DNA of 64,000 bases from Cymbomonas tetramitiformis (Eukaryota; Chlorophyta; Pyramimonadophyceae; Pyramimonadales; Pyramimonadaceae), in contig LGRX02031403.1 of NCBI GenBank assembly GCA_001247695.2, positions 1-64,000 on the forward strand. The letters are read 5' to 3'. Each line of letters starts with the position of its first letter. The stretch's first letter is position 1. The notes beneath the pieces were generated by a model. The model searched no databases. It was given only the letters and a program-made list of their open reading frames with translations, and was not told where the DNA came from. The translations under genes and the position numbers were made by a program. Below, piece after piece: positions 33,562 through 58,789 of the stretch.

Positions 33562-33597
33562 GAGTAGAGGGAGAGGCTCGATGCGCGCTGCCAGTCC

Positions 33598-36500
33598 ATG
33601 GTGGAGGCGGGCATCTTGCAGCCCAGTTCGCTGATGCGAGTCGAACTCACCGGGCGGGTCAGCTTGCACGCCGAGGACTCAACGTTCGAACCACCTGCGC
33701 CCGGTACGTCCGTAACGGGCCAGATGTTGGGCCTGCTACAAGCGACGTCACGCAGTCAGCGGGAGGCCAACGTGGCGACCCGAAGCGAGTGGTCCAGTGT
33801 TGAAGAGCCAGCCGAGGTGGTGCCCGTCACGCCAGCCAGCCTGACCACGACTCAGACAGACCCTCGCTACCCAGACCTCACGCAGGAGCAAGAGGCGGAA
33901 AGTGAGGCCGACTACATGTTGGCCAGTGCACAGCCGTGGGCGGGCATGGCAGTGAACCCGTGGAATCATCAGGACAAGGAGAGCAGCTGGTCTCAGCAGC
34001 GCCTGTACATCGACCGCACGGGCTACGCTCGCTTGTGCACACTCTGTGAAGATGACGGTGGAAGCGAACTAGACGCAGGATTCGTGCAGGTCAAGTTCCC
34101 GCGCTGTGGAGAATGGAAGAAGATCCTGGAGACGGAGTTGTTGTGGCCCGCTGGCTTCACGCTGGTGGACCAGAAGGTTGACAAGGAGACGAAGGTACCC
34201 TCAGAGACCTGGGCCACGCGGGCGAGTTACAGGAGGGACAACGAGCAGGTCCCGCTTCCTGACTGTGGTGCCCATCGAGAAGCTGGGAGGTACACCATGG
34301 CGAGTGTCCAGGAGGCCCTCAACGCCCAGCAGGTGTACCCCACAGGAGTCGTGACTGGCAAACTCATGTGGGACAAGATGGCACGTCAGTTCTGCGTGCT
34401 CAGTGAGCAGACTCGCGTCCAGTGGGAGCTCATGGAGCACATGGTGCGTCATACCATGGATGGCACTACCAACGTGAGCCCCATGGGGAAGGTGACTGGC
34501 GAGTTCCAGCTGCCCTTCTACTATGAGAAGGATCAGCGTTGGCGATACCAGCACCTGAAGTACGTGCAGCGAGTAGACATCGCTGACCTTCGAGCCCGCC
34601 TGAAGGTGAGGTATGACGAGGTGGTAGCCGGTGTGCAAGCCATCCCGCCGCTTACGCTGTCAGACGCAGCTGGCAAGGCGGGGAAGTTCTACCCAGTGAC
34701 TGATGGAGAAGGGGGAGACGGTGAGGTGTTCAGCACGAACGCCGCCGCCGTGGAGTACCTACACTTGGGGGACAATACCAGAGTAATGCTCGCTGCATGC
34801 AAGACCGAGGAGCAGGCACGTGACGCGCTGGCCACCTACGGGACTAGGCGGGACCCTCCAGCACCCACACCCAAGACTGTCAGGACGCAGAAGACTGTCA
34901 GGAGGGATGAGGCATGGCCATCTGGTTCCGCGCCGCCGCCATCCTCAGAGCCGCTGCGCCTGAGGCATCAGACCTGGCCCAACGGGCCCTTCGACCCTGC
35001 GAAGCTGGAATACCACCCATCGGCGTTCCAGGGCACTTACGAGCCAGAATCACCCACCCGCAGCGAAGACACCACTCGAGAATCCTACTGGCTGAACCCG
35101 GAGGAAATCTCAGAGTTCGCAGCGTTGAACGAGCAGACAGTCTTTCTCATCCAGTACCGATGTTTCAAGGGCAAGATCGAGTTCCAGCTTGGGAGGCCCT
35201 ATGCAGAGCGAGGGAAGGGGGTACACACGTGCCAACTCAGCAAGAGAACGATGCACACGTACTCCTCCTCCGCAGCAGTGGGGCAGCGAGGAGAGTGTTT
35301 GCCTCTGGGTGGGCAGTCGAAAGGCTGCACGGGTGGACTCCTGGGCACCATACAGAAGCACGTGGAGCACCTCGGCACGAGCACGCAGCTGGTGGAGATA
35401 GCCGCGAGCCACTTGGGCGATGGTCCACGGCAAGTCACGCTGCATGTGTTCAAGATGCGAGCCAACTCCCATTCCAAGGCCGTGTACTACCTCTGTGAAG
35501 ACCATCGCTATTACCGTGAGCGAGGATCCTACGGGGTGGTGTTTACCTTGGAGTACCTCTCCTCTGGGACACGTAAGTTCGACCGCTGCAGCTGGGTGAC
35601 CTGGGACAAGGCGGCCGTGATGCATCGGGAGCCATTATCAGAGCTCACATCTCTGGTGGGGCCCGCGTTGCTGGCTGACGCACGACGAGCTGAGGTGCAC
35701 AAGCAGCTGTGTGGCGACTTCATGCGTTGCTTGGACCCCGCCGTGGAGGATGGCGGTTCCCATCGCAGACTACATACAGAAGAGGAGGAGGAAGTTGACA
35801 GCGTCTCGAGGCACTCGCCCAACCTCGCAGCTGCTGAGGATGTGGGCACCCACACGTGTCGCACAAGAACGCCGTCGCCGCAGTCGGAGAGTTCTGCTGC
35901 GGAAGAGCAGGACGTAGAGAACATTAGCGAGAGGTTTGTTGGTTTGGCTGCCGATCTGGCGCGGGTGCGCGCCGAGACCGCGGCGAATGACGCCAGCATC
36001 GCAGCGATTGAGGAATCGATAAGGGTGCGCACGGAGATCATCAGAGAGTACGAGGAGCGACCTCGCACTGCTCGTGCAACTGCGAGAATTGGCACACGTG
36101 GCTCCGACTGCCCTGGGCTTGACAGTCACCATGGTGCACGAGCCCAACCTGCACGGGAGCACTACTCTGGCCAGGCTCTCGGCGGGCCGCAGTACGAGGG
36201 CTTGGAGGTCAACTTTGAACAGCGGTCCGAGCACCAGTTGGTCGACGACATCTTGGGGTCTCCGACGGGTTCCGTCTGCACGCAACGGACTGAAGCTCTG
36301 CTTCCGGCTGCACAGGACCAGGGGGCCACCTCAGTCGTACCATCGCCAACCCGTGGCTTCACAGCGCCCAACAGCCCAGAATGGCCCAGTGGTCGCGTCG
36401 CAAGCGCCGACATCCGACGTGACGGCCATCGTGAGGCGTGCCAACAGAGCCTGACTGCAGGGCCCGTACAGCAGCGCTCACCGCGGGCTGGCCAGCGCAG

Positions 36501-36699
36501 GAGGAGATCTCCGAGCCCCAGGAGGGAAACCCGGCATCATGGAGCCGCTCGCAGTCGGCACGCAGGCAGGAGCGCGCCGCGTGCTTCGAATGAGCAACTG
36601 AGTTATGATGAGATTTGGGAGGAGAGGAGAAGAGATAGCGCACTGGGGCCTTTTCAGTGGGGCGCCGGGCCCGCTGCAGCCCGGCGCACCCGTTACTGA
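33598..36699 (+). CDS. Unrecognised 1033-residue region between protease and reverse transcriptase
   Basis: I recognise no family. Opens with VEAGILQPS, reminiscent of the stretch before a Gypsy reverse transcriptase, but no polymerase follows here. Seen in order: a mixed-charge N-terminal region, a globular part with several Trp/Tyr-rich blocks (QLPFYYEKDQRWRYQHLKYV; CSWVTWDKAAVMHREPL), a helical stretch likely to form a coiled coil (VRAETAANDASIAAIEESIR), and an Arg/Ser-rich tail (RRRRSPSPRRE). The tail could bind nucleic acid. Frame matches 32983-33561, so it is the continuation of that polyprotein; it ends in TGA at 36697-36699. Confidence 0.65.
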   Translation: MVEAGILQPSSLMRVELTGRVSLHAEDSTFEPPAPGTSVTGQMLGLLQATSRSQREANVATRSEWSSVEEPAEVVPVTPASLTTTQTDPRYPDLTQEQEAESEADYMLASAQPWAGMAVNPWNHQDKESSWSQQRLYIDRTGYARLCTLCEDDGGSELDAGFVQVKFPRCGEWKKILETELLWPAGFTLVDQKVDKETKVPSETWATRASYRRDNEQVPLPDCGAHREAGRYTMASVQEALNAQQVYPTGVVTGKLMWDKMARQFCVLSEQTRVQWELMEHMVRHTMDGTTNVSPMGKVTGEFQLPFYYEKDQRWRYQHLKYVQRVDIADLRARLKVRYDEVVAGVQAIPPLTLSDAAGKAGKFYPVTDGEGGDGEVFSTNAAAVEYLHLGDNTRVMLAACKTEEQARDALATYGTRRDPPAPTPKTVRTQKTVRRDEAWPSGSAPPPSSEPLRLRHQTWPNGPFDPAKLEYHPSAFQGTYEPESPTRSEDTTRESYWLNPEEISEFAALNEQTVFLIQYRCFKGKIEFQLGRPYAERGKGVHTCQLSKRTMHTYSSSAAVGQRGECLPLGGQSKGCTGGLLGTIQKHVEHLGTSTQLVEIAASHLGDGPRQVTLHVFKMRANSHSKAVYYLCEDHRYYRERGSYGVVFTLEYLSSGTRKFDRCSWVTWDKAAVMHREPLSELTSLVGPALLADARRAEVHKQLCGDFMRCLDPAVEDGGSHRRLHTEEEEEVDSVSRHSPNLAAAEDVGTHTCRTRTPSPQSESSAAEEQDVENISERFVGLAADLARVRAETAANDASIAAIEESIRVRTEIIREYEERPRTARATARIGTRGSDCPGLDSHHGARAQPAREHYSGQALGGPQYEGLEVNFEQRSEHQLVDDILGSPTGSVCTQRTEALLPAAQDQGATSVVPSPTRGFTAPNSPEWPSGRVASADIRRDGHREACQQSLTAGPVQQRSPRAGQRRRRSPSPRRETRHHGAARSRHAGRSAPRASNEQLSYDEIWEERRRDSALGPFQWGAGPAAARRTRY

Positions 36700-37640
36700 G
36701 AAGCAGCCCCGGCGTACAGCCGGGCGCACAGCCTGCCGCCAGACGGTGGGCGAAGCGCACGCAGGTGTGCTTCCTGCTCGTGGGGGTGTTCGCGCGCTTA
36801 CAATGGCCGCAGCTGCCTCACTTTGCAGTGATGGTCGTATGGATGACCATGGAGGTATTCAGATGCCTTGGTGAGATGGCCGCAGTCTGGGCATGCCGTA
36901 CTGGTATGCCTCGCAGAGCCATGGCGCGCGCATTGTGGGCCGTACATACCGCGCCGCTTCAGCAGTGGGCATATCGTCGTATACATCTGCATGTACTAGC
37001 AGAGCTGGCTAGACACTTGCTGTTGCTGAGCGTAGAGGTCTGCAAAGTAGCTGGGTTCCACCATGCCCGGCGCGGGCTATGGTACGTGCCGTTGCTTCGG
37101 CTTGGGCTTGCCATGCTCGCCATGCGCTTCGTGGACATGGTCGGTACTCTGTCTGGGGTGCATCCTGGTGGCCGCCATCCACGTTGGGAACCATGGGCTG
37201 CCAGGCTTCTGCTTGGCATACGATGGAGGTGTGTTTGCCGCGCTCAGAACGCGAGTGAACCACGCGCTGGCGATAGCGCAACGGGTCTCTGCAGCGGGTC
37301 CTGCCACGCTGGCGGCCATCCCGCGCCGCATGCAGAAGCCGCGTGTTGCCGCCCGTCTACAGCGCCTACGGCTCGCAGCCGCTTGTTACCGGGTGGCCCA
37401 TTACGCCTACATGGCGTTGGTCTTGGCTCTGGTGATCTACATATCTGCGGGAGGAGGCTTGGGTCGTATGCAGGGGGGGTGGAGGATGCTGACTTGCATA
37501 CTGACCCTTCACCCTCCAGTCAAACCAGTGGGGACCAGCAGAATTTTAAAACTTTTGTTGTTGATCGTAGTCGCTGCTTGGGTGACCGCTGTGGCCCCTG
37601 GGGAGTTTCAAGGCGTGCCTGCAACGGTCTCGTGCTCTGA
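36657..37640 (+). CDS. Hydrophobic region upstream of reverse transcriptase, possible membrane-spanning module
   Basis: Overlaps the previous ORF by 43 bases in another frame. Contains hydrophobic runs VCFLLVGVFARLQW, FAVMVVWMTMEVF, HLLLLSVEVCKVAGF and LRLGLAMLAMRFVDMVG. In the neighbouring frame, from about 37150 into the reverse transcriptase ORF, come AYMALVLALVIYI and ILKLLLLIVVAAWV. The coding frame probably switches near 37150, by mutation or recoding. Several membrane helices in a retroelement could represent an envelope-like or membrane-targeting part. This is inference from hydrophobicity only. Confidence 0.4.
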   Translation: MGRRARCSPAHPLLRSSPGVQPGAQPAARRWAKRTQVCFLLVGVFARLQWPQLPHFAVMVVWMTMEVFRCLGEMAAVWACRTGMPRRAMARALWAVHTAPLQQWAYRRIHLHVLAELARHLLLLSVEVCKVAGFHHARRGLWYVPLLRLGLAMLAMRFVDMVGTLSGVHPGGRHPRWEPWAARLLLGIRWRCVCRAQNASEPRAGDSATGLCSGSCHAGGHPAPHAEAACCRPSTAPTARSRLLPGGPLRLHGVGLGSGDLHICGRRLGSYAGGVEDADLHTDPSPSSQTSGDQQNFKTFVVDRSRCLGDRCGPWGVSRRACNGLVL

Positions 37641-39006
37641 CTCGCTGCACAGGTCTGCCAGAACCGCCTGGGAGGACCAGAGGTCCTCGCGCCAATGGGA
37701 CACTGGATGGGAAGCCATGGTGGCAGAACGAGACGAGGTGCTTCCGCACACGGTGCTGGACACGTTACAGCCAGGGGGCACAACCAGGGTCACCAAAGAC
37801 GAGGCCGCGTGGTTGGACACCGAGCTCAATGCCACCTTTGGAGGACATCCCGAGTTCACTGAGGAGAACTGGGAGGAGATGCGCAACGTGGTGAGGAGAT
37901 GCAGCTATTGCTTCGCCAACAAACCGCAGGACATCAAAGGCTACCATGGAGGAGCAGCACATGCGACCTTCGCCATCCCGTTTAAGGACGAGACCAAGGT
38001 GGCCTACCAGCGACCGAGGAAATACAGCCCAGGGGAGCAGGAGATCATCGACCTGCACTGCAAGGAGCTGCTGGAATATGGCTTCATTGAGCCGGCTTCG
38101 CAGCACTGTAGACACGCCAGCAACGTGGTGGTCGCAGGGAAGAAGGACCATGACACTGGACAGTGGACCTCGACGAGGTCCTGTGTCGACCTCCGGAACA
38201 CGAACCGGTTGTCGCTGAAGGACAACACGCTGCCTCACCGTCCAGAAGAGCTCTACCAGCGCGTGGCCAAAGCCAAGTTCAAGACTACTCTGGACGCGAC
38301 CAAGGCGTTCCACCAGATTCCCATGACCACCGAGGAGGACAGGGACAAGACAGCGTTCTGGTGGGGCAATCAGCTCTATCGTTACACTTCCATGCCATTT
38401 GGAGCAGCTGGAGCGACCGCCGCCTTCATCAGAATCATGGACTACGAGTTGCGTCACCTGCAACACTGTACGGTGGCGTACGTCGATGACGTGTGCATAT
38501 ACTCAGACACCGCTGAGCAGCACATCAAGGATGTAGAAGCCGTGCTTCGCACCTTGGGGGATGCAGGGATCCGCCTGCATTCGGGCAAGTCGACCTTCGG
38601 GTCAGCCACCGTGGACTTCTTGGGCTACCGCATTGGCCACAACACCATTGGTGCGCAGGACATCAAGTGTAAGGCCATCCAAGAGTTGCCCAAGCCCGAG
38701 GACAAGACTGGGGTGCGCTCCATCCTTGGACTCATGAACTACTACAAGGGCTTGGTGGGGGAGCCCATGGGACCCAACTACTCAGAGATGGCCCGACCAC
38801 TGAACGACCTGCTCAGGAAGGATGTGTTGGACGTCAAGGAAGCTTGGGGGAAGGAGCAGGACCAGGCATTGCAGGCATTGAAGGACGCTCTATGTTCGGG
38901 GAGATGTTTGAAGCCCATCGATTACAGCAAGCCCATTTTCCTCTACACGGACTGGAGCAACCATGGCATTGTGCAGTGCTGGGTCAGAAGGACGAGAATG
39001 GCGTAG
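37063..39006 (+). CDS. Reverse transcriptase and start of RNase H
   Basis: Gypsy-type reverse transcriptase from about residue 300: AIPFKDETKVAYQRPRKYSP, LLEYGFIEPASQHC, SCVDLRNTNRLSLKDNTLPH, TTLDATKAFHQIPM, SMPFGAAGATAAF and VAYVDDVCIYSDT (YVDD at 38479-38490), then the thumb (SILGLMNYYKGLVG). RNase H begins FLYTDWSNHGI, where the frame breaks near 38970; one missing G would restore HGIGAVL. The N-terminal 200 residues include hydrophobic helices, described separately. It primes and copies the element RNA. Confidence 0.9.
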   Translation: MPGAGYGTCRCFGLGLPCSPCASWTWSVLCLGCILVAAIHVGNHGLPGFCLAYDGGVFAALRTRVNHALAIAQRVSAAGPATLAAIPRRMQKPRVAARLQRLRLAAACYRVAHYAYMALVLALVIYISAGGGLGRMQGGWRMLTCILTLHPPVKPVGTSRILKLLLLIVVAAWVTAVAPGEFQGVPATVSCSDSLHRSARTAWEDQRSSRQWDTGWEAMVAERDEVLPHTVLDTLQPGGTTRVTKDEAAWLDTELNATFGGHPEFTEENWEEMRNVVRRCSYCFANKPQDIKGYHGGAAHATFAIPFKDETKVAYQRPRKYSPGEQEIIDLHCKELLEYGFIEPASQHCRHASNVVVAGKKDHDTGQWTSTRSCVDLRNTNRLSLKDNTLPHRPEELYQRVAKAKFKTTLDATKAFHQIPMTTEEDRDKTAFWWGNQLYRYTSMPFGAAGATAAFIRIMDYELRHLQHCTVAYVDDVCIYSDTAEQHIKDVEAVLRTLGDAGIRLHSGKSTFGSATVDFLGYRIGHNTIGAQDIKCKAIQELPKPEDKTGVRSILGLMNYYKGLVGEPMGPNYSEMARPLNDLLRKDVLDVKEAWGKEQDQALQALKDALCSGRCLKPIDYSKPIFLYTDWSNHGIVQCWVRRTRMA

Positions 39007-42000
39007 AGCACATTTGCGTGGTGATCAGTCGCTCGCTGTCGAAGACTGAGAGACAGTACGCGAGCTTCCAGGGTGAGATGCTGGCAGTGGTGTGGGCAAT
39101 CCGCACGTTGCGCCAGTACCTGCACGGGGTCCACTTCACGCTGATTACCGACCATTCGCCGCTCACGACTCTCATGGAGAAGGGGGACCTGCAGGGCCAA
39201 CACCTGCGCTGGGCCATCAGTCTTCAGGAGTTTGAGTTCACGGTCCAGTACCGACCAGGTCCGAAGAATGAGAACGCGGATGTGCCATCCAGGTACCCGC
39301 TGCCCAGCACCGCAGACGAGACTGGCGCCCGCTTGGACCGAGAAGGGGACCACGCGAGGGAAGCGGGGCATGCCGAGAGGCTAACGCGCTGCTTCGCAGA
39401 CACCATCTGCTTGGAAGTGACCAGGGAGCCACCGCTTGGTCCAGAAGTGAGCCCAGAGGCACAGGTGGCCAACTACTGCGAGAACATGGTCAGGGAGCAG
39501 CTGGGGACCAGCGCAGTTCATCGACTATTTGACGTACACTACCAAGAGGAGTTGGAGTGCAACAAGGGGGTTATGTTTGACACTGACCACCCAGAGGTGG
39601 CCAGGTGCTCGGGCAAGCTGACACGAGTCGCCTGGGATGCCCTCAGCCAGGTCCGGCCAATCAGGGGCATGCATTCTGGAGGCTCCCCAGCGATCTACGG
39701 CGACGAGACCATGGAGGGTGGCAAGCTCAAGGTGCCAAAGAAGATCGACACGAGAGTGATTGACAAGAGCTTCTTTCGAGAGGCCAGAGAAGAAGGCGTG
39801 GTCTGCTATGAGCCCTGTGGGGGCTTGTGTGCTGGATTGGAGATGCTCTTGCACTGTGGTGGCAAGGTCAACAAGTACCTCTACCAGGACATCTCGGAGT
39901 CCAGCCAGGCGGTAGCCAGGGCCAGGTGCATGGCGCCCAGTCGCCGTCATCCTGACCTGTTTCGCGCTGATGCAGCTCACTTGGAGCAGCTGCCCAGCAA
40001 CATCGAAGACACCAGTCTCATTGACCTCGTGCATGCAGGGGCATTGAGTGGAGAACAATGGGTCATGGTGTGTGGATATCCATGCCAGGACCTGTCACCA
40101 GCTGGCAAGCTAGCTGGTTTGGAGGGCAAGCACAGCAGGCTGTTCTATCAGGCAGTGCGGGTCCTTTCGACGCTGCAGCAGCTGCAGCCTCAGCGACCGC
40201 CAGCATATGTGCTAGAGAACGTCTCCCCGTTATCGCACCGGGAGAACTCGAAGATCAGAAAGGAGGTGTTCCCCATCATCAATAGTGTGGTGGGCCAGCC
40301 AGTATCCTTCGACGCGGCGCGCGCGGGATCGTACGCGCCTCGCCTACGAGCATATTGGAGCAATCTGTTTCAGAATCAGCAGTTCAATCTGGTGATGGAG
40401 GGGGTGGACAGGCCACCAGCCAGATACGTGCGTGATATTTTGCAGCGAGGCTGGAAGCCACGCAAGGTAGTCACTGGAGACAGGAAGCCTCACTACACCG
40501 CCAACGTTGTGGGGGAGCCTATGCGAGTATTGCCGACCATCTTGGCAACGCAGAACTCTCGCGCCTTTCGTGCACCTCGCGCAGGCACAGTAGTAAGGAA
40601 AGAAGATGCTGAAGAAGAAGGGGAGACCAGAGAGGTCAACCTGGACGAGAAAGTTGTTGCCATGGGGTACAGCGCGAGCGAGCTACGCATGGCGCACGGC
40701 ATGAAAGACGAAGAGTTGGCAGGAGTGCTTGGTCTCGCCATGGACCGACGAGCAATGGAGCTGTTGTATGCGATTGCTGAGGTCAGCACGACCAAACTGC
40801 CAAAGAGTGAGGAGAGCGAGGAGGAGGAGCATGGCGCGTTAGCTGCCATTCCCATCGTGAAGTCCACCAAGGTGGCTACCACTTCTGGGGACACAACGGA
40901 GCCAGTGCGAGCACAACTAGCAGAGTGGATCACCAGTTCCAACGACTACACTCAGCAAGTCGCACGACGCCTTAGCCATCAGGACTGGGAAGAGCGGCTG
41001 CAACACATGTGCAGCCAGGGGCAGAAAGGCACTCAGGGACTCGGCACAGCCGACGCCGTTCCACGTCGCAGACAGTGGAAGCTTGCCTCCATGAAGCTCG
41101 CGGGCTACGAGGCACGACATCGCCAAGCCTTTTCAGGACCTGGAGACAAGCCAGTGGAGGTAAGCTCAGCTCCAGAATGGGCACCAGTGGTGAAGGAGAA
41201 AGAGATGAGGCTGCCTATGCTGCCTGACACGACGAGAATGGTCGCCATGCTTGCCAGTGTGACCCACCAGGAGTCACTTCGAGAGAAGTACCCTGACATA
41301 CACGAGGACGAGCTATGCCTCGCGTGGATAAAGACCGGAGGAAGCGTGGAGGTGCCCAAGGAGGAGTACCATAGAGTGAGGAAGAGAGCAGCTCGTCACC
41401 GCTGGGACGAGCTCATGGGCGAGCTGTACATGGTTACCGTCAGTGGTAAGGAGCTGCTGGTGCCCAAGCCCTGCGACAGAATTCAGCTGGTGCGTGAGCA
41501 CCACGAGAGGACTGGCCATTGGGGCATCAGGCGAACGCTGAACTTGTTGTGGCAACGCCATTACTGGGTGGGCATGAAACAGGATGTGCGAGCGGTGCTC
41601 ACTCAGTGCCAGACTTGCCAGAGAGTGAAGACGCACTACGCACGGGAGGAGGCAATGCTCACGCCGCTGGAAATCAAGTCCTTCATGTACCGCTGGTCCC
41701 TGGATTTAGCCTGGCCGACGAAGCGCATCACGAAAACTAGGAACCAGCGCGTCTTGGTCATGATTGAGCACTACACGCGTTTCGTCGTGTGTGTTCCGAT
41801 TCCCGACAAGGAAGCCTCGACCATCGCCAGCGCGTTTCGCAATCACGTTCTGTCAGTGTTTGGGGCGCTAGCGGAATGCCTCGTGGATGGGGGCACGGAG
41901 TTCGAGGGCGAGTTCGCCGCCCTATGCAGGCAGTGTCTTATCGATCGGAGGGTGACTTCACCTAGTTCCCCAGAGAGCAATGGCTTGACTGAACGAGTGG

Positions 42001-42200
42001 TACACACCCTCAAGTTCTGCTTCAAGAAGATGGCCCTCGACAAGGTCCTGGACTTCGAGTGGGATGAGATGCTCTGGTCGCTCGTACTCAGTTACAACGC
42101 AGCCAAGCAGCAGTCGACTGGGAAAAAAGGTTATAGAGGAATACATAAGTGCATAATGGGGAATAGAAAATCGAATCTTTTTTGGGGGAATAGATTATAG
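38844..42200 (+). CDS. RNase H, cytosine-C5 DNA methyltransferase and integrase (integrase truncated by insertion)
   Basis: RNase H continues with EMLAVVWAI, TDHSPL and NADVPSR. Then comes a complete DNMT3-like C5 methyltransferase: motif I CYEPCGGLCAGLEMLL (about 39806), motif IV GYPCQDLSPAGK (about 40074) with the catalytic Cys, RLFYQAV, motif VI LENV (about 40212), motif VIII SYAPRLRAYWSN (about 40328) and a motif X-like GVLGLAMDRRAMELLYAI. Integrase follows: H2C2 zinc site (HHERTGHWG ... CQTCQR) and the DDE triad in SLDLAWP, VDGGTEFEG and SPESNGLTERV. Coding sense ends at 42122 (AAKQQSTG), where a 3.4-kb element is inserted. The next host codons are at 45555. Confidence 0.92.
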   Translation: MGEGAGPGIAGIEGRSMFGEMFEAHRLQQAHFPLHGLEQPWHCAVLGQKDENGVEHICVVISRSLSKTERQYASFQGEMLAVVWAIRTLRQYLHGVHFTLITDHSPLTTLMEKGDLQGQHLRWAISLQEFEFTVQYRPGPKNENADVPSRYPLPSTADETGARLDREGDHAREAGHAERLTRCFADTICLEVTREPPLGPEVSPEAQVANYCENMVREQLGTSAVHRLFDVHYQEELECNKGVMFDTDHPEVARCSGKLTRVAWDALSQVRPIRGMHSGGSPAIYGDETMEGGKLKVPKKIDTRVIDKSFFREAREEGVVCYEPCGGLCAGLEMLLHCGGKVNKYLYQDISESSQAVARARCMAPSRRHPDLFRADAAHLEQLPSNIEDTSLIDLVHAGALSGEQWVMVCGYPCQDLSPAGKLAGLEGKHSRLFYQAVRVLSTLQQLQPQRPPAYVLENVSPLSHRENSKIRKEVFPIINSVVGQPVSFDAARAGSYAPRLRAYWSNLFQNQQFNLVMEGVDRPPARYVRDILQRGWKPRKVVTGDRKPHYTANVVGEPMRVLPTILATQNSRAFRAPRAGTVVRKEDAEEEGETREVNLDEKVVAMGYSASELRMAHGMKDEELAGVLGLAMDRRAMELLYAIAEVSTTKLPKSEESEEEEHGALAAIPIVKSTKVATTSGDTTEPVRAQLAEWITSSNDYTQQVARRLSHQDWEERLQHMCSQGQKGTQGLGTADAVPRRRQWKLASMKLAGYEARHRQAFSGPGDKPVEVSSAPEWAPVVKEKEMRLPMLPDTTRMVAMLASVTHQESLREKYPDIHEDELCLAWIKTGGSVEVPKEEYHRVRKRAARHRWDELMGELYMVTVSGKELLVPKPCDRIQLVREHHERTGHWGIRRTLNLLWQRHYWVGMKQDVRAVLTQCQTCQRVKTHYAREEAMLTPLEIKSFMYRWSLDLAWPTKRITKTRNQRVLVMIEHYTRFVVCVPIPDKEASTIASAFRNHVLSVFGALAECLVDGGTEFEGEFAALCRQCLIDRRVTSPSSPESNGLTERVVHTLKFCFKKMALDKVLDFEWDEMLWSLVLSYNAAKQQSTGKKGYRGIHKCIMGNRKSNLFWGNRL

Positions 42201-42689
42201 ATACTCTATGTCACATGCCATCGAGCCATGCCATCTATCGTTTCGGTTTGTACTACAGTATGAACTATCACTCGGTACCCCGGAGGTACAAGCGCAAGCG
42301 GTTCAGCGTGTGCAATATTTTGCGTCTGGCACACCCCCTTCTTCTAAACAATTTTTTGCATGTAGCATGAAGCATAATTTTTTCCACCCTTCGATTCTAA
42401 AGCGTTTGTATTCATTAGGTGAATACCTTTCGTTTGAGCTATCGATTGGCCCCATCCGCAACCGCATCAGCTTAGCCTTCGCGACTGCAAGCTAAGTTGG
42501 TGCGGTGTGAGATGGTTTCAACCACTTGCGGCTTTGCATAATAGGGGTTTTCGTGAGAATCTTCTCACGAAACTTGGCAGTGATATTGTTCATATCAATA
42601 TCAGTGCACCCTCAAGAGCATATGGCAAGCCGTTGAGTATATTAAAGACGGCCGCGTGCTGGCATGATGCCTTTTGGGTTTGAAACCCA

Positions 42690-43545
42690 AACCCAAACAT
42701 GCCAAACAGCGAAGGGCTTCCCGTGAGTTCCAGCGCACGTAACTTTGCAAAATATATTGATAAGATGCATATATTTCACTTTTCTGAAGTGCAAGGTTTG
42801 CGATAGCTTGTGCGCGAAGTTAGCATATTATTTCTTTGACCCAGATTTATGAGTTTGTATATCACGCTAAAATCTGTGTCAAAGAAATAGTAATACCATT
42901 TTGTGCACAGCCTTTCTTAGACCTTGTGCTTCGAATATATCAAAGATAAATATCTTGGCAATATTTCTACGCAGTTACGTGCGCTAGAACGCACGGGAAG
43001 CCCTTCGCTGTTTAGCATGTATTGGGTTTGGAAACATTCGAACCCAAGCCCAATAGATCTGCCAAAGAAATAAATTGATGGTTTTGCCAACAAGTTATCT
43101 CAAACCTTGTGCTTCTGAGAACTGAAAGATATGTGTCTTGTAAATATTTGTGCATAGTTTCGCGCGCTATAACGCACGGGAATTGCTTTTCAGTTTGGCA
43201 TGTATTGGGTTTGGGTAAACTCGAACACAAACCCAATAAATCTCCAAAGAAATAAATTGATGGCTTCGTGCACAAGGCTTTTGAGGCCTTGGGCCTTTGG
43301 CAACTAAAAGATATATATCTTAGTAATACTTTTGCAAAGTTACGGGCGCTGGAACTCACGGGAAGCCCTTTGCTGTTTGGCATGTTTGGGTTTGGGTTTG
43401 CATGTACTCAAACCCATGATGTGTAGCACGCGTTTTGCGCATAGCTTACATCAGAGGTTGTGCGTTTGAGGGTGCACCAATATTGCTGTTAGCAATATTG
43501 GTGCCAAGTATCGTGCGCTAGAACGCACGAGAACCCCTCCGCTGT
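42690..43545. repeat. Diverged repeat blocks in both orientations inside the TIR element
   Basis: Blocks containing GCGAAGGGCTTCCCGTG, the GCGCTAGAACGCACGGG type, and (A)AACCCAAACCCAA occur at about 42690, 42960-43045, 43150-43220, 43330-43400 and 43505-43545. The first is inverted relative to the others, so the stretch can fold back on itself. Confidence 0.7.
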
Positions 43546-43767
43546 TTGAGTTTTGATGCGATGTGCATGAAAGTTATAAGGGCCTCTCAGCTTAGCTCGC
43601 AGTCGCGACTGCAAACTGAGCTGATGCGGCCACGGCTCAGTCAAGAGCTCAAAAAACTCCTACCTAAGAGTCTAAATGATATATCTTTGTGCATTACGAA
43701 CGTTGGAAAATGTTTTCCCAATCTAATTTACTCGCAAACAGTGTGGGCAATCATACGTGCAGTGAAA

Positions 43768-43826
43768 TATTCACGGCCGTGAATTTAATATTCACGGCCG
43801 TGAATTTAATATTCACGGCCGTGAAT
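43768..43826. repeat. Three tandem TTCACGGCCGTGAA palindromes
   Basis: Perfect 14-bp palindromes separated by TTTAATA. Confidence 0.9.
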
Positions 43827-43926
43827 TCCAGATTCGGGAGGGCGTAAACCGTACGTTTATGTGAGAACTGAAGTCGGCTTGGTTGCAAAGACCTGTCTGG
43901 TATTTTCTCTAAGTATTTTCAGACGT

Positions 43927-44229
43927 TCCCAAAGTGACCAAAAACCGAACGATCGGCGATCGAACGGTTTTTGGTCACTTTGGGAGTGAGATCGTGAGTT
44001 TAGGCTTGGTGACAACACGCGAAACCACTGAGTATTTTCAGACGTGTTCCCAAAGTGACCAAAAACCGAACGATCGGCGATCGAGCGGTTTTTGGTCACT
44101 TTGGGAGTAAGATCGCGAGTTTAGGCTTGGTGACAACACGCGAGACGACACTGAGTATTTTCAGACGCGTTCCCAAAGTGACCAAAAACCGAACGATCGG
44201 CGATCGAACGGTTTTTGGTCACTTTGGGA
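43927..44229. repeat. Three tandem units each centred on a long perfect-type palindrome
   Basis: Each unit carries TTCCCAAAGTGACCAAAAAC, a short GATCG-containing centre and the inverted arm ending CACTTTGGGA. Units start near 43927, 44047 and 44170 (period about 120 bp). The arms are complementary over more than 20 bp. Confidence 0.9.
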
Positions 44230-45039
44230 GTGAGATCGTGAGTTTCTAAGGCTTGGTGACAACACGCGAGACAACACTCAGTGTATTACCAGTGTTTAAG
44301 TATTACAGTCTGAAAATACTTGGAGAAAATACTCACTGTCTGATTTGTTAAATATGCAATTTTAACTAAAGGCGGAAGGCTTTCTCTCCGGGAGTGTGCC
44401 CTGTCCAGCGAAATAAAGATCTCTAAGATGGTATTAATCTGAGTAATCTTTTGCTTCAAAATATTATCACATATTCCTACTTAGTATGATGTGGGTACCC
44501 GTTTCGCAAAGAAGATGAAAAACCATTGCGCAACTATTGCGGGTTTCAAATTCCTTAAATTCCACCCGCTTCCGCCAAATGAACGCGTCATCCCACAACG
44601 AGATGTGTGGTTGACCGTTCAGTTTGTGCAATTTGTTTAGGGAAAACAACGCATACGAAATACTATTTTTGCTAACGCTTCCCTCATCCGTTGCCCAGGC
44701 TCTCTTGCAAACGAGCGCGCGAATGAGGGAAGAAACGCCTAGCGGAAACGTGGACGCGGTTGACATCCGCGTTTCCGCTAGAGGTGAAATTGCATTGCCA
44801 AACGGCCAGTATGGGTTTATTATGCTTATATGATATGCGTGATATGTTCATGCTGTGCAAGATGCGTCCCTATTGGGCGTGAGTCGAGTTGGCTGGCTCG
44901 AATCACGCCCATGATTAACCCCCTCACAAGAACCGTCAAGCATCCTAGATTCCGAACGGATCTTGCTTCCAACCCTTTCTAATTTGAGCAGAATTGCCTG
45001 CACACTCGGTATCGTGGTCAGGAACTCGCGTAGAATTAC

Positions 45040-45135
45040 GTATCTGGTTCAACGAAAGCCCTGTATCTAGTTCAATGAAAGCCCCGTACCTGGTTCAACG
45101 AAAGCCCCGTATCTGGTTCAATGAAAGCCCCGTAA
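45040..45135. repeat. Four tandem copies of a 23-bp unit
   Basis: Unit TATCTGGTTCAACGAAAGCC with small changes, four copies. Confidence 0.85.
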
Positions 45136-45554
45136 TCTTGCTTGCGCAAACAAAGTTGTTCCTAACACTTATTATGTAGTCAACTGTACAAGGGAACCGT
45201 GGAAAGCAAGGGCGACGCACCTTTCATTTTTGATGGAGAATCTTTTACCCTGTCCTCTTTCTTGAATAGAGGACAATAAAATCTAGAATAGATGGACATA
45301 CCATCAGTGTTCAACAGTACAACGATACCCGCCGTTGTCGCAAGAAAGGCACACCCTGCCGTACTTTTTCGGAGGCTTCCTCATGTTTGCAATAACCAAG
45401 TGAACCGAGGTGGGGTGGGGGCAAAATAATTCAAACGGTGATATTAGACGCATGTTCATGTGTCACAAACTTATTCCCCAAAAAAAGATTCGATTTCCTA
45501 TTCCCCATTATGCACTTTTCTATTCCCTAATCATTATGCTACCAGTCGACTGGG

Positions 45555-46946
45555 GTGGCGCCGTTCACACTGCTGTTCGCTCAGGAAGCTACTGTGCCAC
45601 CAGATCTTCGTGCCCGACCCGAGTTGGACTTTGAGAAGCAGGAGGAGAGGACACTGGCTGAGGACTTGTTGCAGCGAGCAGCCATCGTGAAGAAGCTCAT
45701 GGTGCACGCAGGGTGCAACCTGGAGATCGCCCAGCACCGCGACACCTTGCGATACGAGCACAGGAGGAGTGGCAGCTACGAGCCGAAGCCGCACCAGTTC
45801 AAGGCAGGCGATTTCGTATACATAAGACAGCAGCCGCGCTCTGGCATGGAGGTGGCCACCAAGCCAGCCATCTTGAAGCTAGTCAAGGTGCAGAGAGATG
45901 GGGTGGTAGTGTTGGAGGACAGCACGAAGTTGCGGGAGAAGAGCACAGTGCAGAACATCGCACCGTGTCATCTGCAGGTGAAAGACCAGTACGACTGCAG
46001 CGTTGCCATCCCCAGCAAGCATCTTGCATGCGAGGAGTGCATGAGAATAGATGGGGAGGCAGCCATGCTGCTGTGCGACACCTGTAACCGTGGCTATCAC
46101 ACGTGGTGTCTGAAGCCGGCGCTGGATGGAGTGCCTGAAGGAGATAGGCAATGTCCCAAATGCTTGGGCGGGGCCGTAGTGGCAGCTGCCGCTGAAGTGA
46201 GTACGTCTATCGTGGAGAAGATGGCTGCCATGGAGCTGCAGCTGAGAGAGAAGTTGGGTACAGATGTGGTGTTGTTGCCTGCAGACGTGGGTCCACATCG
46301 TGCTGTGAAACCGGGACGTGAACACCCATGGCAGGCACTCACATCGCGACAGATGCTCAGGAAGGAAGGGAGCATGGGGGATCTCCCTGACAGAGTGGCT
46401 TGGGGGAACCAGGAAGAGCTCAGTAGAGTGATTATAGACGTAATGCCAGGATTTTGGCATGAGGGTCACCGTACCATCTTGAGCAGAAAGTGTTCAGAAC
46501 AATACACTCGCGTGAGGAACCTTCGGAAAGCGGCTACGGTGCAGGCCATGAGCCCGGAGGAAGTGCAGAAGAGGGGGGATGTTACGCAGTTGAACAGAGC
46601 CCAGGTGAAGATTGCCAGTCAACTGAACTGGGGCTTAGAACTGGTGATGACAGTTCCCCAGGAGTTTAGACGTCTGGCGCACGAGGTGACTTGGGAGAAG
46701 GTCACGCAGGTCTGGGACCCATGGGCTGGCACAGGTGTTATTGGCAAAGTAATGTCACTAGAGTGGCCTCACCTGAAGTTCATGAACAACGATTGGAACC
46801 CGCAGTTGAAATGGCACGAAGCCCTTAACGCCTTACAGCCGGGCAACTATCGCGCCTGGAAAGAAAAGTATGGGGTGTGTGGCTATTACCCTTCGGGTGG
46901 CTTAAGCCACCCTAACAGCGATTTAGGGTGGCTTAAGCCACCTTAA
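45555..46946 (+). CDS. Integrase C-terminus, PHD finger and first half of an amino-methyltransferase-like module
   Basis: Continues the integrase after the insertion: VAPFTLLFAQEATVP, then a GPY/F-like C-terminal region (FKAGDFVYIRQQP). Residues about 157-200 form a C4HC3 PHD finger: CEECMRIDGEAAMLLCDTC, GYHTWCLKP and CPKC. PHD fingers usually read histone H3 tails, so this may guide integration, as chromodomains do in chromoviruses. From about residue 380 comes QVWDPWAGTGVIGKVM (46708-46755), motif I of amino methyltransferases, then FMNNDWNP (motif II-like). At 46881 a MITE interrupts the codon after YGVC; the protein continues at 47527. Confidence 0.85.
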   Translation: MAPFTLLFAQEATVPPDLRARPELDFEKQEERTLAEDLLQRAAIVKKLMVHAGCNLEIAQHRDTLRYEHRRSGSYEPKPHQFKAGDFVYIRQQPRSGMEVATKPAILKLVKVQRDGVVVLEDSTKLREKSTVQNIAPCHLQVKDQYDCSVAIPSKHLACEECMRIDGEAAMLLCDTCNRGYHTWCLKPALDGVPEGDRQCPKCLGGAVVAAAAEVSTSIVEKMAAMELQLREKLGTDVVLLPADVGPHRAVKPGREHPWQALTSRQMLRKEGSMGDLPDRVAWGNQEELSRVIIDVMPGFWHEGHRTILSRKCSEQYTRVRNLRKAATVQAMSPEEVQKRGDVTQLNRAQVKIASQLNWGLELVMTVPQEFRRLAHEVTWEKVTQVWDPWAGTGVIGKVMSLEWPHLKFMNNDWNPQLKWHEALNALQPGNYRAWKEKYGVCGYYPSGGLSHPNSDLGWLKPP

Positions 46947-47527
46947 CGTTTTCAATTATTGCGGGAGCTATCGGTACCGGAAACTAGATTTTTTAAGCTC
47001 AAAATGACGGCGACAATGTCTTCTTTTAGACACTATATGCACTATTCGGCGAGCCCAAGTTCCCGGTGAGCAATTTTGGGAAGTATCCAAGAGGGTGCAA
47101 CATTTAGTAAATTTTGAGCGATTTTTTCCGGTTTTTGCATACCCATGCTACTTCAACCGAGATTTTGAGGGTCAAGATGACCTCGGATCAAACTTTTGGC
47201 AACACACTGCAGAAAGAGCAGCTCGAGATCTTGACATCATAGGTCTCCAAATTTTGAAAAGCGCCTTCGAGGAAGCCCCCGTGAGCTAATTGGCTTAAGG
47301 TGGCTTAAGCCATCTTAAGGAAAATTGGGAAATACCCACCCTACTTCAACCGAGATTTTGAGGGTCAAGATGAACTCAGATCAAACTTTTGATAAGACAC
47401 TGCAGAAAGAGCAGCTCAAGATCTTGGCGACACAGGTCTTCAAATTTTGAAAGCACCGCCGAGGAAGCCCCAATGAGCTCTTCAAGTTAAGGTGGCTTAA
47501 GCCACCTTAAGCTGCGGGTAATAGGCA
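46882..47527. mobile_element. 0.65-kb MITE inserted in the methyltransferase module
   Basis: TGTGTG flanks both ends (46876-46881 and 47528-47533). Ends are inverted: GCTATTACCC on the left, GGGTAATAGGC on the right, each followed inward by GGTGGCTTAAGCCACC, itself a palindrome. Removing the insert and one TGTGTG restores the frame (YGVC then DAVITSPWF). Inside, about 90 bp (TTCAACCGAGATTTTGAGGG ... CACTGCAGAAAGAGCAGCTC) is tandemly duplicated at about 47150 and 47345. No ORF of note. Confidence 0.85.
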
Positions 47528-47895
47528 TGTGTGACGCAGTGATCACCTCACCCTGGTTCGCAGTGCTGGATATTGCGTTGCCATTGGCAGTGCTGGCCAG
47601 CAGAGTGGTGGCTTGCATTCATGTGCCATCGCACTACATGACAGATATGGCAGAGAGCAGGGCACAATACTTTCGTAAGTTGTGTCATGCTGGACGCCTA
47701 CACGTGATTGGACACTTGGAGCATGGGCCCATTGGTAGAAGATGTATGTGGGTAATGGTGTTTCGAAATCCTCTGACACGGGCCAGGATGCTACGAGGAG
47801 GAGAAGCTTCTGGAGTGGGTATGTTTACCTTCAGCATAAGCAAGTTCGCGCTGGATGGTGTTACGACAGAAGATGCTGAGCAAGCTCTTGTTTAA
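47527..47895 (+). CDS. Second half of the amino-methyltransferase-like module, polyprotein C-terminus
   Basis: CDAVITSPWFAVLDIALPLA carries TSPWF at the place of motif IV (TSPPY/F in N4-cytosine and N6-adenine enzymes), followed by a hydrophobic strand (SRVVACIHVPSHYMTD) and GPIGRRCMWVMVF. With motif I upstream, the order I then IV is that of gamma/alpha-type enzymes. The second Pro of the usual SPP is Trp here, so catalysis is uncertain. The ORF ends with TAA 25 bp before the purine tract. Confidence 0.7.
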   Translation: MCDAVITSPWFAVLDIALPLAVLASRVVACIHVPSHYMTDMAESRAQYFRKLCHAGRLHVIGHLEHGPIGRRCMWVMVFRNPLTRARMLRGGEASGVGMFTFSISKFALDGVTTEDAEQALV

Positions 47896-47920: not shown

Positions 47921-47930
47921 AGATGGGGGA
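47921..47930 (+). promoter_or_regulatory. Polypurine-tract-like sequence before the 3' LTR
   Basis: AGATGGGGGA lies immediately before TGTTGAG, the proposed first bases of the 607-bp LTR. Such tracts prime plus-strand synthesis. Its position supports the 607-bp LTR over a 387-bp one. Confidence 0.6.
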
Positions 47931-48537
47931 TGTTGAGAAAAAGAGCTTGCATAAGTTGTAGAGAAGAAGATATCAAAAAAATTGAGATTTTGTGTAGTCA
48001 CAGTAGGAAGTCAACTGTGCAGTCATATAAGGCAATATATACAGAGCCGAGCTAGTGTTATAGAAGCGCTGACAATAAGTAAGACTGTTTAGTAGTAGGG
48101 CTAGAGAGTTGTGCTTTGTGTGGACGCTTCGTGCATAAGTTCGCGACAGCTGTCACAAACCACGGCTTATCGTGTACCTTAGCCGGGTTGTGACACTTGC
48201 TGTAGCAGTCCCTGTGACGAACATATGACACGCGCAGTACGGTACGCGCAAGGAGTTATGACAGTGAAGAGATACGGAAATACGAACGGGTGTTACACTT
48301 GTTTGGAGATAGCGAGAATAAGTAGGGCGGCGTAGCAGGGTGAGGGAGACGCTCATTTTTGTTTTGCCTTCGTAACAGCGATTCCGAAAATAAGAAGTAC
48401 TCGCTCAGACCGCGAAAACAGCAGTGTTATGATATAAGGATTTGTGATATATAGCATTCTTCTGCTTGTGAAGATATACATTTGTTGGACTTGCTCTTGT
48501 GTGATAGCGTCAGAACTGTGATTTACAGTCTTTTACA
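47931..48537 (+). repeat. 3' LTR, full length 607 bp
   Basis: Begins TGTTGAG and ends TTTTACA (TGT...ACA termini). Repeated without visible change at 48538-49144. Positions 221-607 match the 5' partial LTR. Confidence 0.85.
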
Positions 48538-49144
48538 TGTTGAGAAAAAGAGCTTGCATAAGTTGTAGAGAAGAAGATATCAAAAAAATTGAGATTTTGT
48601 GTAGTCACAGTAGGAAGTCAACTGTGCAGTCATATAAGGCAATATATACAGAGCCGAGCTAGTGTTATAGAAGCGCTGACAATAAGTAAGACTGTTTAGT
48701 AGTAGGGCTAGAGAGTTGTGCTTTGTGTGGACGCTTCGTGCATAAGTTCGCGACAGCTGTCACAAACCACGGCTTATCGTGTACCTTAGCCGGGTTGTGA
48801 CACTTGCTGTAGCAGTCCCTGTGACGAACATATGACACGCGCAGTACGGTACGCGCAAGGAGTTATGACAGTGAAGAGATACGGAAATACGAACGGGTGT
48901 TACACTTGTTTGGAGATAGCGAGAATAAGTAGGGCGGCGTAGCAGGGTGAGGGAGACGCTCATTTTTGTTTTGCCTTCGTAACAGCGATTCCGAAAATAA
49001 GAAGTACTCGCTCAGACCGCGAAAACAGCAGTGTTATGATATAAGGATTTGTGATATATAGCATTCTTCTGCTTGTGAAGATATACATTTGTTGGACTTG
49101 CTCTTGTGTGATAGCGTCAGAACTGTGATTTACAGTCTTTTACA
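48538..49144 (+). repeat. Second tandem LTR copy, 607 bp
   Basis: Directly follows the first copy head to tail with no bases between. Confidence 0.88.
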
Positions 49145-49363
49145 TGTTGAGAAAAAGAGCTTGCATAAGTTGTAGAGAAGAAGATATCAAAAAAATTGAG
49201 ATTTTGTGTAGTCACAGCACGAAGTCAACTGTGCAGTCATATAAGGCAATATATACAGAGCCGAGCTAGTGTTATAGAAGCGCAGACAATAAGTAAGACT
49301 GTTTAGTAGTAGGGCTAGAGAGTTGTGCTTTGTGTGGACGCTTCGTGCGATAAGTTCGCGACA
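49145..49363 (+). repeat. Third LTR copy, first 218 positions only
   Basis: Matches LTR positions 1-218 with a few changes (CACAGCACGAAG for CACAGTAGGAAG, one extra G) and stops at GCGACA, two bases before the point where the 5' partial LTR begins. Confidence 0.85.
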
Positions 49364-49366
49364 ATT

Positions 49367-49448
49367 TAGCTTAGGGTTTATTTCTTATACGGGTTTGTCT
49401 ATATTGGTTCACTGACTGTCTGATATCTTGAACCGGGATATTCCAGTA
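49367..49448. repeat. 82-bp dispersed repeat, copy 1
   Basis: Identical to 58708-58789 except for one base. Begins TAGCTTAGGGTTTATTTC and ends GGGATATTCCAGTA. Flanks differ. Confidence 0.9.
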
Positions 49449-50475: not shown

Positions 50476-51738
50476 CTATTCCATGAATGATAGCTTGCTC
50501 TCATTCTTGAGCATGCGATCTATGACTTCTGAGACGACATGCAACTTGGCACGCGAATCAGACGCTGTAAAGTGCCAACGGCCACCCTTGTGATCTTTAA
50601 AGTACTCATCCAATGCGGCACGGATGAAATCATCACTGTGGTGGATAGCTGGGGCATTCCAGTGCACTACACTCTCCATCACTAAAGCGTCTTGGGATAA
50701 ATGTCGAGATCCCGCTGCATGCTTATCGATGCATGACCCTTGGCTCTCAGCCACAGCTTCATTTTGTGTCTTTAAAGCACAATGTTGAAATAAAAACATC
50801 CAATCAGGTACATCCGCATACAACTCTGAGACAGTCAACATATCCTTCATCACGGCAGTACCACTCGCATGTGTCCATCTTTCTGCATACCTTGGGGACT
50901 CCATGTATGCCGTCACCAGTCTTTGCTTTATTATTTCATGTTGCTCCCATAAGACACCGAATGCCGGCAACGAGACACTTCCTTCTAGCCGTGCCCAGTC
51001 AAAGACTTTCTGTAAACAAGCCCTCTCGTCTGGAGGTCTGCAGGGAAGTTGGAACAAAAAACGTAAGTCGAAACAACCTGCCATAACCGCACACCATGTA
51101 TGTACCTCGTTGTCTAAAAAACGCAAGGTAAAGTGCTGAAATACAAGGTCACACCACTTCGCTAAGCGGTTCGTGCATACTGAGTTGAAAGCTTTTTTGA
51201 AGTCCCTCCCAAAAGCAGGTGCTGTCTTCAAAGCCACACCCATAAAGGTTCCTTGAGTCTGTATCTCTTCCTTGTGTTTACACAGCAACGGAAAATCCTC
51301 AGCTTTCAACTCTACTTTAGCACTGTCCTTGTCCTTAAAATCTAGCTGTTCTGTGAACACCTTATCAAAGTTGTGCGCGAAAGCCGCTTCTCGCTCTGTC
51401 ACCTCCCAGGGTAAGGTATTCACTGTCTGCTGAAAAAGGGAAAGTGCCTTAACATGAGTCAGCAAGTCAGCCAATCCTACTAAGATGGAAACAACAAAAA
51501 TCAGTCCGTACAATTGAGCCAAGAAGGTCTTGGCATAAGTTACTTCCTCCTCTCTGCCGGAGAGAACTTTATCCTGTAAGTGGGTGACAATAGCTAGGTA
51601 GTTGAGAATAAAGTTCTTGTAAACTTTTCGCTCAGCTTGAGCAAAACGGGTTTCACAAAAAGTTTGGATGTTATACAACCTCTGTTTTAACTTCGCTGAG
51701 GCTTCGAGAAGCTTCTCGTAGTTTTTTTCCGTACGCAA
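50476..51738 (-). CDS. hAT-like transposase, C-terminal part after frameshift
   Basis: Starts at a non-ATG codon, so it is the continuation of the preceding ORF and not a separate gene. IQTFCETRFAQAERKVYKNF resembles the conserved segment after the second catalytic Asp in KRAB/ZNF862-like and other hAT-derived proteins. The helical remainder would hold the insertion domain and the last catalytic Glu, which I cannot assign. Ends in TAG. Confidence 0.55.
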   Translation of the reverse strand: MRTEKNYEKLLEASAKLKQRLYNIQTFCETRFAQAERKVYKNFILNYLAIVTHLQDKVLSGREEEVTYAKTFLAQLYGLIFVVSILVGLADLLTHVKALSLFQQTVNTLPWEVTEREAAFAHNFDKVFTEQLDFKDKDSAKVELKAEDFPLLCKHKEEIQTQGTFMGVALKTAPAFGRDFKKAFNSVCTNRLAKWCDLVFQHFTLRFLDNEVHTWCAVMAGCFDLRFLFQLPCRPPDERACLQKVFDWARLEGSVSLPAFGVLWEQHEIIKQRLVTAYMESPRYAERWTHASGTAVMKDMLTVSELYADVPDWMFLFQHCALKTQNEAVAESQGSCIDKHAAGSRHLSQDALVMESVVHWNAPAIHHSDDFIRAALDEYFKDHKGGRWHFTASDSRAKLHVVSEVIDRMLKNESKLSFME

Positions 51739-53158: not shown

Positions 53159-53977
53159 AACTAATGTTTAATATCGATGCAAACGCAGCTCCTCGCTCGC
53201 TGTCCCTCCTCGTGTGTTACCACTTAGAAAGAGTATTATTGTCAAGTTCGCCTTCTCTAGAAAAGTACTGGACAAAAAGATTGAGGAGTTGAGCAGACCG
53301 GTTGAGGATTATAAGTCCAATTCCGTTAAGCAGGGCCACTCCGTTTGCATTAAAACAAGCCCCAAAATCGGGCTCCCCATGACCGCCTATGAACCTCCAA
53401 AAGTAGCTTCAGGAGGGGAGGAAGGGTTGGGTGCACAATATATAACAACTGTGGAAACGAACAGCAAACGATCAGTTGTATATATAAGGCCGAGAATCGT
53501 GCGATTATAAATCGTTAAATCGTGGGATCATCGTTCGCTAAAGCGACGACGGCTAGCGCAATAATCCGTAACGTACACCTCGGATACTTTGAATCGTCAC
53601 TCTGACGCACGATACGTGTGGATCAATCAGTAATCCAGCGTCAATATGTATCACGAAACGCAATTCATTGAACCTTGAATCGTCACTCTGCAATACGATA
53701 CGCAATTCAAAGGGGGCTACATCCTAAGAACTGTAAGGCTAATGCCTAAGGTGAGGGACTAAAGTGGACTCAGTTCCCCCCAATAACCTAAAAACACCAT
53801 GAGGGACGCCTCAAATCGGTGTAAGAAGACTGGTACCAGCAAGAAGCAACAACAACAAAGACATCAAAGACATATACAAAGGTATGCCCGTTGTGAGGTC
53901 GCAACTCTTTTAAGAGGGGAGATCTGTCAGGGTTATGACCGATGACACATATGTCATACATGTCATACGTGTCATAC
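53159..53977. other. No gene seen; short direct repeats
   Basis: Includes short repeats of GAATCGTCACTCTG with GATACG nearby (about 53590-53710). The 98-residue ORF at 53214-53510 has no recognisable features. Confidence 0.5.
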
Positions 53978-58707: not shown

Positions 58708-58789
58708 TAGCTTAGGGTTTATTTCTTATACGGGTTTATCTATATTGGTTCACTGACTGTCTGATATCTTGAACCGGGATATTCCAGTA
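58708..58789. repeat. 82-bp dispersed repeat, copy 2
   Basis: Same orientation as 49367-49448, 9.3 kb away, one mismatch. Confidence 0.9.

Follow-up and report, generated by a model that had tools for sequence, protein, structure and literature searches.

A stretch of 64,000 nucleotides (nt) from the green alga Cymbomonas tetramitiformis (contig LGRX02031403.1, positions 1 to 64,000 of the forward strand; the window) contains a decayed copy belonging to a large Gypsy-type retrotransposon family that has split direct repeats and encodes, in one pol polyprotein, a DNMT3-like C5 cytosine methyltransferase domain, a PHD finger and a second module, predicted to be an amino-type methyltransferase. 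A preliminary description had placed this element at 38844..47895, and its span was corrected to 29133-49363 by repeat comparison and direct reading of the ends. Its features are as follows.

29133-49363, + strand: whole element
29133-29519, + strand: left terminal repeat X, 387 nt, TGTCACAAA...TTTTACA, 96.9% identical to 48151-48537 and 48758-49144
33568-36699, + strand: long open frame upstream of the reverse transcriptase, 1043 codons, no Pfam match, 'gag' by position only
37930-38826, + strand: reverse transcriptase, PF00078 79.2 bits
38845-39248, + strand: RNase H, PF17917/PF17919, split over two frames (38845-38970, 38973-39248)
39804-40775, + strand: DNMT3-like C5 cytosine methyltransferase domain, PF00145 41.1 bits
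41460-42122, + strand: integrase, first piece (zinc-binding and DDE core), PF17921 59.5 bits, PF00665 28.7 bits (cut-off 32.6)
42123-45542, + strand: nested insert, foreign to the element, with internal repeat arrays and 55-nt inverted repeats (42138-42192 / 45472-45526)
45543-45647, + strand: integrase, last piece
46026-46163, + strand: PHD finger (C4HC3), PF00628 31.9 bits
46677-46880, + strand: second methyltransferase module, first piece, motif I DPWAGTG, 72% identical to copy L040 (differences per synonymous site, pS, 0.82; per nonsynonymous site, pN, 0.20)
46881-47523, + strand: nested insert of ~0.6 kb with palindromic repeats, borders approximate, interrupting the second module
47524-47805, + strand: second methyltransferase module, second piece, motif IV TSPWF at ~47545-47559, 81% identical to L040 (pS 0.73, pN 0.12)
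47922-47930, + strand: purine-rich stretch GATGGGGGA, adjoining repeat Y, read directly
47931-48148, + strand: repeat Y, TGTTGAG...GCGACA, followed by GC (repeat comparison)
48151-48537, + strand: second copy of repeat X (repeat comparison)
48538-49363, + strand: further Y-GC-X-Y, 607-nt tandem unit (99.5%), with the element's right end at GCGACA (repeat comparison)

The window copy is dead, with RNase H in two frames and inserts in the integrase and the second module, and the pieces of its broken pol were analysed separately (Pfam cut-offs: PF00145 22, PF00665 32.6, PF00628 24, MethyltransfD12 22 bits). RNase H (89.8 bits), C5 and the integrase H2C2 finger (59.5 bits, above its cut-off) followed one another in that order in frame 38673-42200, and the reverse transcriptase was 85% identical to that of copy L040 (pS 0.69, pN 0.10). 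The 3.4 kb integrase insert is bounded by a 12-base direct repeat (42111-42122 and 45543-45554) and contains arrays of 59-nt palindromes plus 167- and 108-nt repeats.

The complete DNMT3-like C5 domain reported earlier between RNase H and integrase was confirmed (PF00145 41.1 bits), with PCQ at ~40080, ENV at ~40215 and RLRAYW at ~40341. A profile built from six of the elements' C5 domains and run against PDB sequences matched DNMT3A first (E 3.1e-9) and DNMT3B at best at 3.5e-7, followed by 4onj, labelled only 'DNA methyltransferase' and which we take to be a DRM (3.5e-6), named DRM2 entries (4.5e-5) and HhaI (1.8e-4). Motifs I, IV (Cys), VI (ENV), VIII and X were present in the DNMT3 order, and the three C5 blocks followed the unrearranged order of DNMT3A, not that of DRM; scored alone, the middle block gave 23.4 bits and the outer blocks 7.8 and 4.4. 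All six domains keep the cysteine of motif IV, the EN in motif VI and the R.R..W.N in motif VIII without change, and the domain is classed from its sequence as DNMT3-like. In P0022, P0020, P0044, P0025 and P0031, motif IV reads SCE or ECQ rather than PCQ, the cysteine being retained.

Cymbomonas C5 genes were considered as donors: six of eight loci (L001-L008) matched the element C5 at E <= 0.001 (27-42% identity over 47-156 columns), L004 matched more weakly and L007 gave no match, so that no clear parent was found among them. L008, which has DNMT3-like motifs by eye, represents a separate multi-copy family with frames of ~380-400 codons and a PF00145 match of near full length (L008; C8, C6, C2041, C154, C16883, C25294). 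Between C5 and integrase, relative P0047 carries a G-patch domain (residues 2030-2073, 24.0 bits, cut-off 22), and a QKGTQGLG stretch, judged similar by eye, occupies the same position in the window frame.

The C4HC3 PHD finger reported after the integrase was likewise found (PF00628 scores of 31.9 bits for the window and 44.2 for L040, above the cut-off of 24). By sequence its best PDB match was the MLL3 PHD (E 4.6e-14), with the ATXR5 PHD at 1.3e-12 and KDM5A and BAZ2 also matched; by fold, DPF3 and UHRF1 were matched, and these likenesses identify it as a PHD finger of the chromatin type. Several of these PHD fingers bind histone H3 with unmodified K4, and for this reason it is our guess, by analogy, that the element's finger may read the same state. 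The PHD region was present at 25 of 30 second-module loci, the pol match beginning inside or after the PHD in the other five. After the PHD, relatives have a predicted small beta-barrel (strands 109-153 of P0051), which is possibly Tudor-like; a Tudor family was matched weakly by one of 30 members (E 0.072).

The DPWAGTG/TSPWF module of the preliminary description is real, but in the window it lies in two pieces with the ~0.6 kb insert between them, and neither piece matched a methyltransferase family in Pfam, PHROGs or NCBIfam; the amino-type identity claimed for it draws profile and fold support from relatives and none from the window pieces. Motifs I and IV are 59 residues apart in the intact relatives P0004 and P0005. 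MethyltransfD12, the best Pfam family, scored 21.2 bits with the P0044 piece and 17.5 with whole P0044 (cut-off 22), and weak matches to it, given as E-values only, were seen in 9 of 30 relatives. Two structure models of the module gave the fold of a methyltransferase of the N6-adenine kind, with METTL5 as the first structural match, the KsgA/Dim1 rRNA enzymes close behind and M.TaqI tied within 1 Z unit. Gamma-class features, the Rossmann fold and motif I, were seen: of the 67 rows with a full motif I, at least 39 read DP[WF]xGTG, and HVPGHY occurs in 46 of 78 rows. METTL5, M.TaqI and HsdM (type I M subunits), which share 12-19% identity with the module, have NPP[FY] at motif IV, whereas the module has mostly SPWF there (SPPF in 3 of 74 rows, SPPF or SPYF in 6), and no partner subunit or target-recognition domain was seen. 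The module is a predicted methyltransferase fold of the amino type (N6-adenine kind). A profile of the module (A2) drew four weak matches, to unrelated proteins, from PDB sequences, and since no relatives were confirmed in IMG/VR viral contigs, GTDB genomes or phages, no prokaryotic or viral donor of the module was found at the sensitivity of that search.

The Cymbomonas assembly (851.7 Mb; genome size estimate 850 Mb-1.2 Gb, PMC5741210) was searched with the second module of P0005, and 150 of 3038 candidate places were scored. Each of the 150 aligned over no fewer than 161 of the 162 residues with 98-100% identity, and one contained an internal stop. All 15 of these places with an open frame longer than 2000 codons carried, judged by motif, reverse transcriptase, RNase H, C5 (motifs IV, VI and VIII), integrase core, PHD and the second module (motifs I and IV) in identical order and in one frame (2413-2415 codons in ten). 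Long-frame copies with the proposed order exist, and both modules are kept in them. The integrase zinc-finger pattern was present in 13 of the 15, being absent from L044 and L047, and L047 also has ~130 codons fewer between C5 and the integrase core. With this, the notion that host methyltransferase fragments or motif noise became chance neighbours in one dead element, although the copy in the window is disrupted and neither piece of its second module matches a family alone, is refuted for practical purposes by the 15 of 15 long-frame copies with both modules, and relatives outside Cymbomonas and purifying selection (below) count against it too.

An exact 21-base Y-GC-X junction, which counts right ends rather than intact copies, occurred 617 times forward and 576 times in reverse (1193; reversed control 0 and 0), and the family is very abundant in Cymbomonas. 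For 20 places chosen without regard to frame (places 2-24 of the scored list, omitting two on contigs that were too short and one on C8379), 451 bases were fetched at the expected C5 position. C5 sequence stood there in 11 (7 with PCQ and ENV, 4 partial), and 9 had no pol sequence at that position, which shows that breakage or truncation is common among the copies; none of the 20 was a C5-less variant with another part of pol alone at the C5 position.

In the 15 long-frame copies, pN/pS was 0.12 for C5, 0.024 for reverse transcriptase, 0.066 for integrase and 0.083 for PHD (pS 0.13-0.23 over all parts). The ratio of nonsynonymous to synonymous substitution rates (Ka/Ks) of the second module, 0.006, was set aside because these copies had been found by similarity to that module, and selection on it was judged instead from the window-L040 comparison, which points to strong purifying selection. 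Such substitution patterns indicate that both methyltransferase-type domains and the PHD are kept under purifying selection in one polyprotein. At fourfold sites of the 15 copies, C/T differences amounted to 23.6% in CpG vs 15.3% elsewhere and G/A differences to 19.3% vs 8.2%, and the observed/expected CpG ratio was 0.64-0.73 in copies vs 0.91 and 0.95 in two further regions of the window, the pairs being non-independent and base composition differing. This modest CpG decay fits cytosine methylation of the copies, by whichever enzyme.

Outside Cymbomonas, both methyltransferase modules occur in polyproteins P0044, P0045, P0047 and P0031, which are 37-43% identical to L040 in C5 and 42-50% in the second module. 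P0031, itself part of the profile, has TSPKE at motif IV. With a profile built without them, the second module was recognised in P0025, P0020 and P0022 (39.7, 28.9 and 26.8 bits), which have lost motif IV and have long second-module branches; P0027 matched marginally (14.8 bits), and the profile search did not find the module in P0028, P0029, P0030 or P0033. The module is therefore not needed catalytically in every lineage. Correlations of identity over 45 pairs were 0.77 for C5-integrase, 0.26 for second module-integrase and 0.10 for second module-C5; without P0020, P0022 and P0025, whose second-module motifs are lost, they became 0.80, 0.78 and 0.53 (21 pairs), and after also removing pairs within Cymbomonas 0.69, 0.64 and 0.26 (18 pairs). 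These values do not establish strict co-inheritance of the modules.

Repeats of the window copy are arranged as X at the left end and Y-GC-X-Y plus one extra 607-nt unit at the right, X and Y each starting with TG and ending with CA. Of 30 second-module loci, 21 have another Y, 180-260 nt long, that matches the first at 97.3-100% identity and in 18 of the 21 ends at or just around GCGACA; L034 has a variant end, and in L019 and L035 it ends earlier, ahead of unrelated flanks. X lies between both Y repeats in these loci save L011, where Y follows Y almost directly and a second pol, from the reverse transcriptase on, begins at once, in keeping with either head-to-tail elements or a recombinant. 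In both the window and L040, GATGGGGGA stands directly ahead of Y and looks like a polypurine tract, as which it may function. The arrangement X-coding-Y-X-Y is a split direct repeats layout as in DIRS/Ngaro elements, seen with both ends in the window and by right ends only in other copies. From the likeness of Y repeats within one copy (97-100%), recent activity of the family seems probable.

Two identical flanking long terminal repeats, as in Ty3/Gypsy elements, do not occur in the window, and the Gypsy assignment is by pol, not by repeat layout: the order reverse transcriptase, RNase H, DDE integrase with H2C2 finger is that of Ty3/Gypsy. In L040 the H2C2 finger scores above its cut-off and the integrase core PF00665 reaches 30.1 bits (cut-off 32.6). 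The L040 pol frame gave no Pfam match to aspartic protease and no [DN][ST]G[AST] motif, and relative P0047 matched one weakly (20.1 bits, cut-off 28.2). A scan of the L040 pol frame, covering that frame only, gave no phage-integrase match at E 0.1 that would indicate a tyrosine recombinase, and the upstream frame of the window, without any Pfam match, likewise had none. No target-site duplication was seen at the window copy, where rearrangement has affected the right end.

A DNMT3 in a Gypsy element has been known since 2018. KnitGypsy-Dnmt3 of the streptophyte alga Klebsormidium nitens has Gypsy domains, an unrearranged DNMT3-type C5 inside the polyprotein and the split direct repeats of DIRS elements (PMC5890265), a combination shared by the Cymbomonas element, the likeness being one of description rather than of compared sequences. 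It differs in that the term 'PHD' is absent from the main text of PMC5890265 (0 occurrences), the accessible part of which mentions no second methyltransferase for it. SymbioDIRS-Dnmt3 and SymbioLINE-Dnmt of Symbiodinium also carry a C5 methyltransferase, one each, but belong to the tyrosine recombinase and LINE classes, and CG methylation by SymbioDIRS was demonstrated in yeast (PMC5890265). DIRS elements with a Dam-like N6-adenine methyltransferase share an enzyme of that type, likened here by description and not by direct comparison of domain kinship, and the split repeats, but have a tyrosine recombinase, not a DDE integrase, and no C5 or PHD reported in the accessible text (PMC5890265). 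A PHD together with a second, unrelated methyltransferase in one DNMT3-Gypsy polyprotein was not found in the open-access literature searched, in agreement with the earlier statement that two methyltransferases plus a histone reader in one polyprotein were undescribed, and the accessible part of PMC5741210 describes no such element for Cymbomonas. DNMT-bearing retrotransposons are known; the present element retains a histone reader beside two methyltransferase-type domains of unrelated kinds, and might therefore be capable of chemically marking its own nucleic acid or the chromatin of its host. The split repeats, like those of the Klebsormidium element, raise the question of one DNMT capture in green-lineage Gypsies or independent ones.

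The reading favoured here, at a probability of roughly 0.45, is that the window holds a decayed Gypsy-type copy whose polyprotein methylates new DNA twice and integrates via a PHD tether; we infer its catalysis, substrate, timing and targeting as follows. A pol polyprotein with the order reverse transcriptase, RNase H, DNMT3-like C5, integrase, PHD (barrel in relatives) and N6-adenine-type methyltransferase would act during or after reverse transcription. The C5 domain would methylate CpG sites of newly made element cDNA or of copies that have just integrated, the C-terminal domain would methylate a base amino group, most likely N6 of adenine, in the same nucleic acid or complex, and the PHD, kin to fingers for the unmodified H3 tail, would tether the integration complex to chromatin and guide integration. 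The C5 step has precedent, as Symbiodinium enzymes methylated in yeast assays, whereas we infer the other two. A wider version, in which a writer-reader kit (5-methylcytosine, N6-adenine-type mark, H3-tail reader) has copies pre-marked and integrated by histone state and is widespread in green algae, is tentative and rather unlikely.

A rather unlikely alternative makes the second module an enzyme that methylates the element's own RNA (m6A-like), with C5 alone acting on DNA: METTL5, the first structural match, is an 18S rRNA m6A enzyme with the rRNA enzymes KsgA/Dim1 close to it, the module lacks an evident DNA target-recognition domain and retrotransposons package RNA, but the tied M.TaqI is a DNA enzyme and so is the best Pfam family, MethyltransfD12. 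The module might instead be a non-catalytic relic, S-adenosylmethionine-binding or structural, that is retained because it helps to assemble the polyprotein or to bind nucleic acid. Retention of motif I and HVPGHY in most of the rows counted above, strong purifying selection and the SPPF or SPYF rows make this unlikely, against the mostly W second proline of motif IV, the loss of that motif in P0031, P0025, P0020 and P0022, the long branches of the last three, and the four relatives in which the module was not found. It is still less probable that the methyltransferases restrain the element, the host silencing methylated copies so that damage is limited and the lineage tolerated: the authors of PMC5890265 propose self-limitation, and the lowered CpG ratio in copies agrees with it, yet 1193 exact junctions point to success, and the second module and PHD are left unexplained.

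Further observations concern the surroundings of the element and the region upstream of its reverse transcriptase. An 85-base direct repeat (97.6% identity) lies at 49364-49448, adjoining the element's right end, and at 58705-58789. A minus-strand pair of long frames at 50476-53167, one starting with a C2H2-like finger, looks like a hAT-type transposase. Upstream of the reverse transcriptase (L040 pol residues ~40-330; window 37051-37640) lie hydrophobic, membrane-like segments, odd for a Gypsy pol, numbering 5, 6, 1, 5 and 5 in five copies and 3 in the window frame, in a region under weak constraint (pN/pS 0.44).

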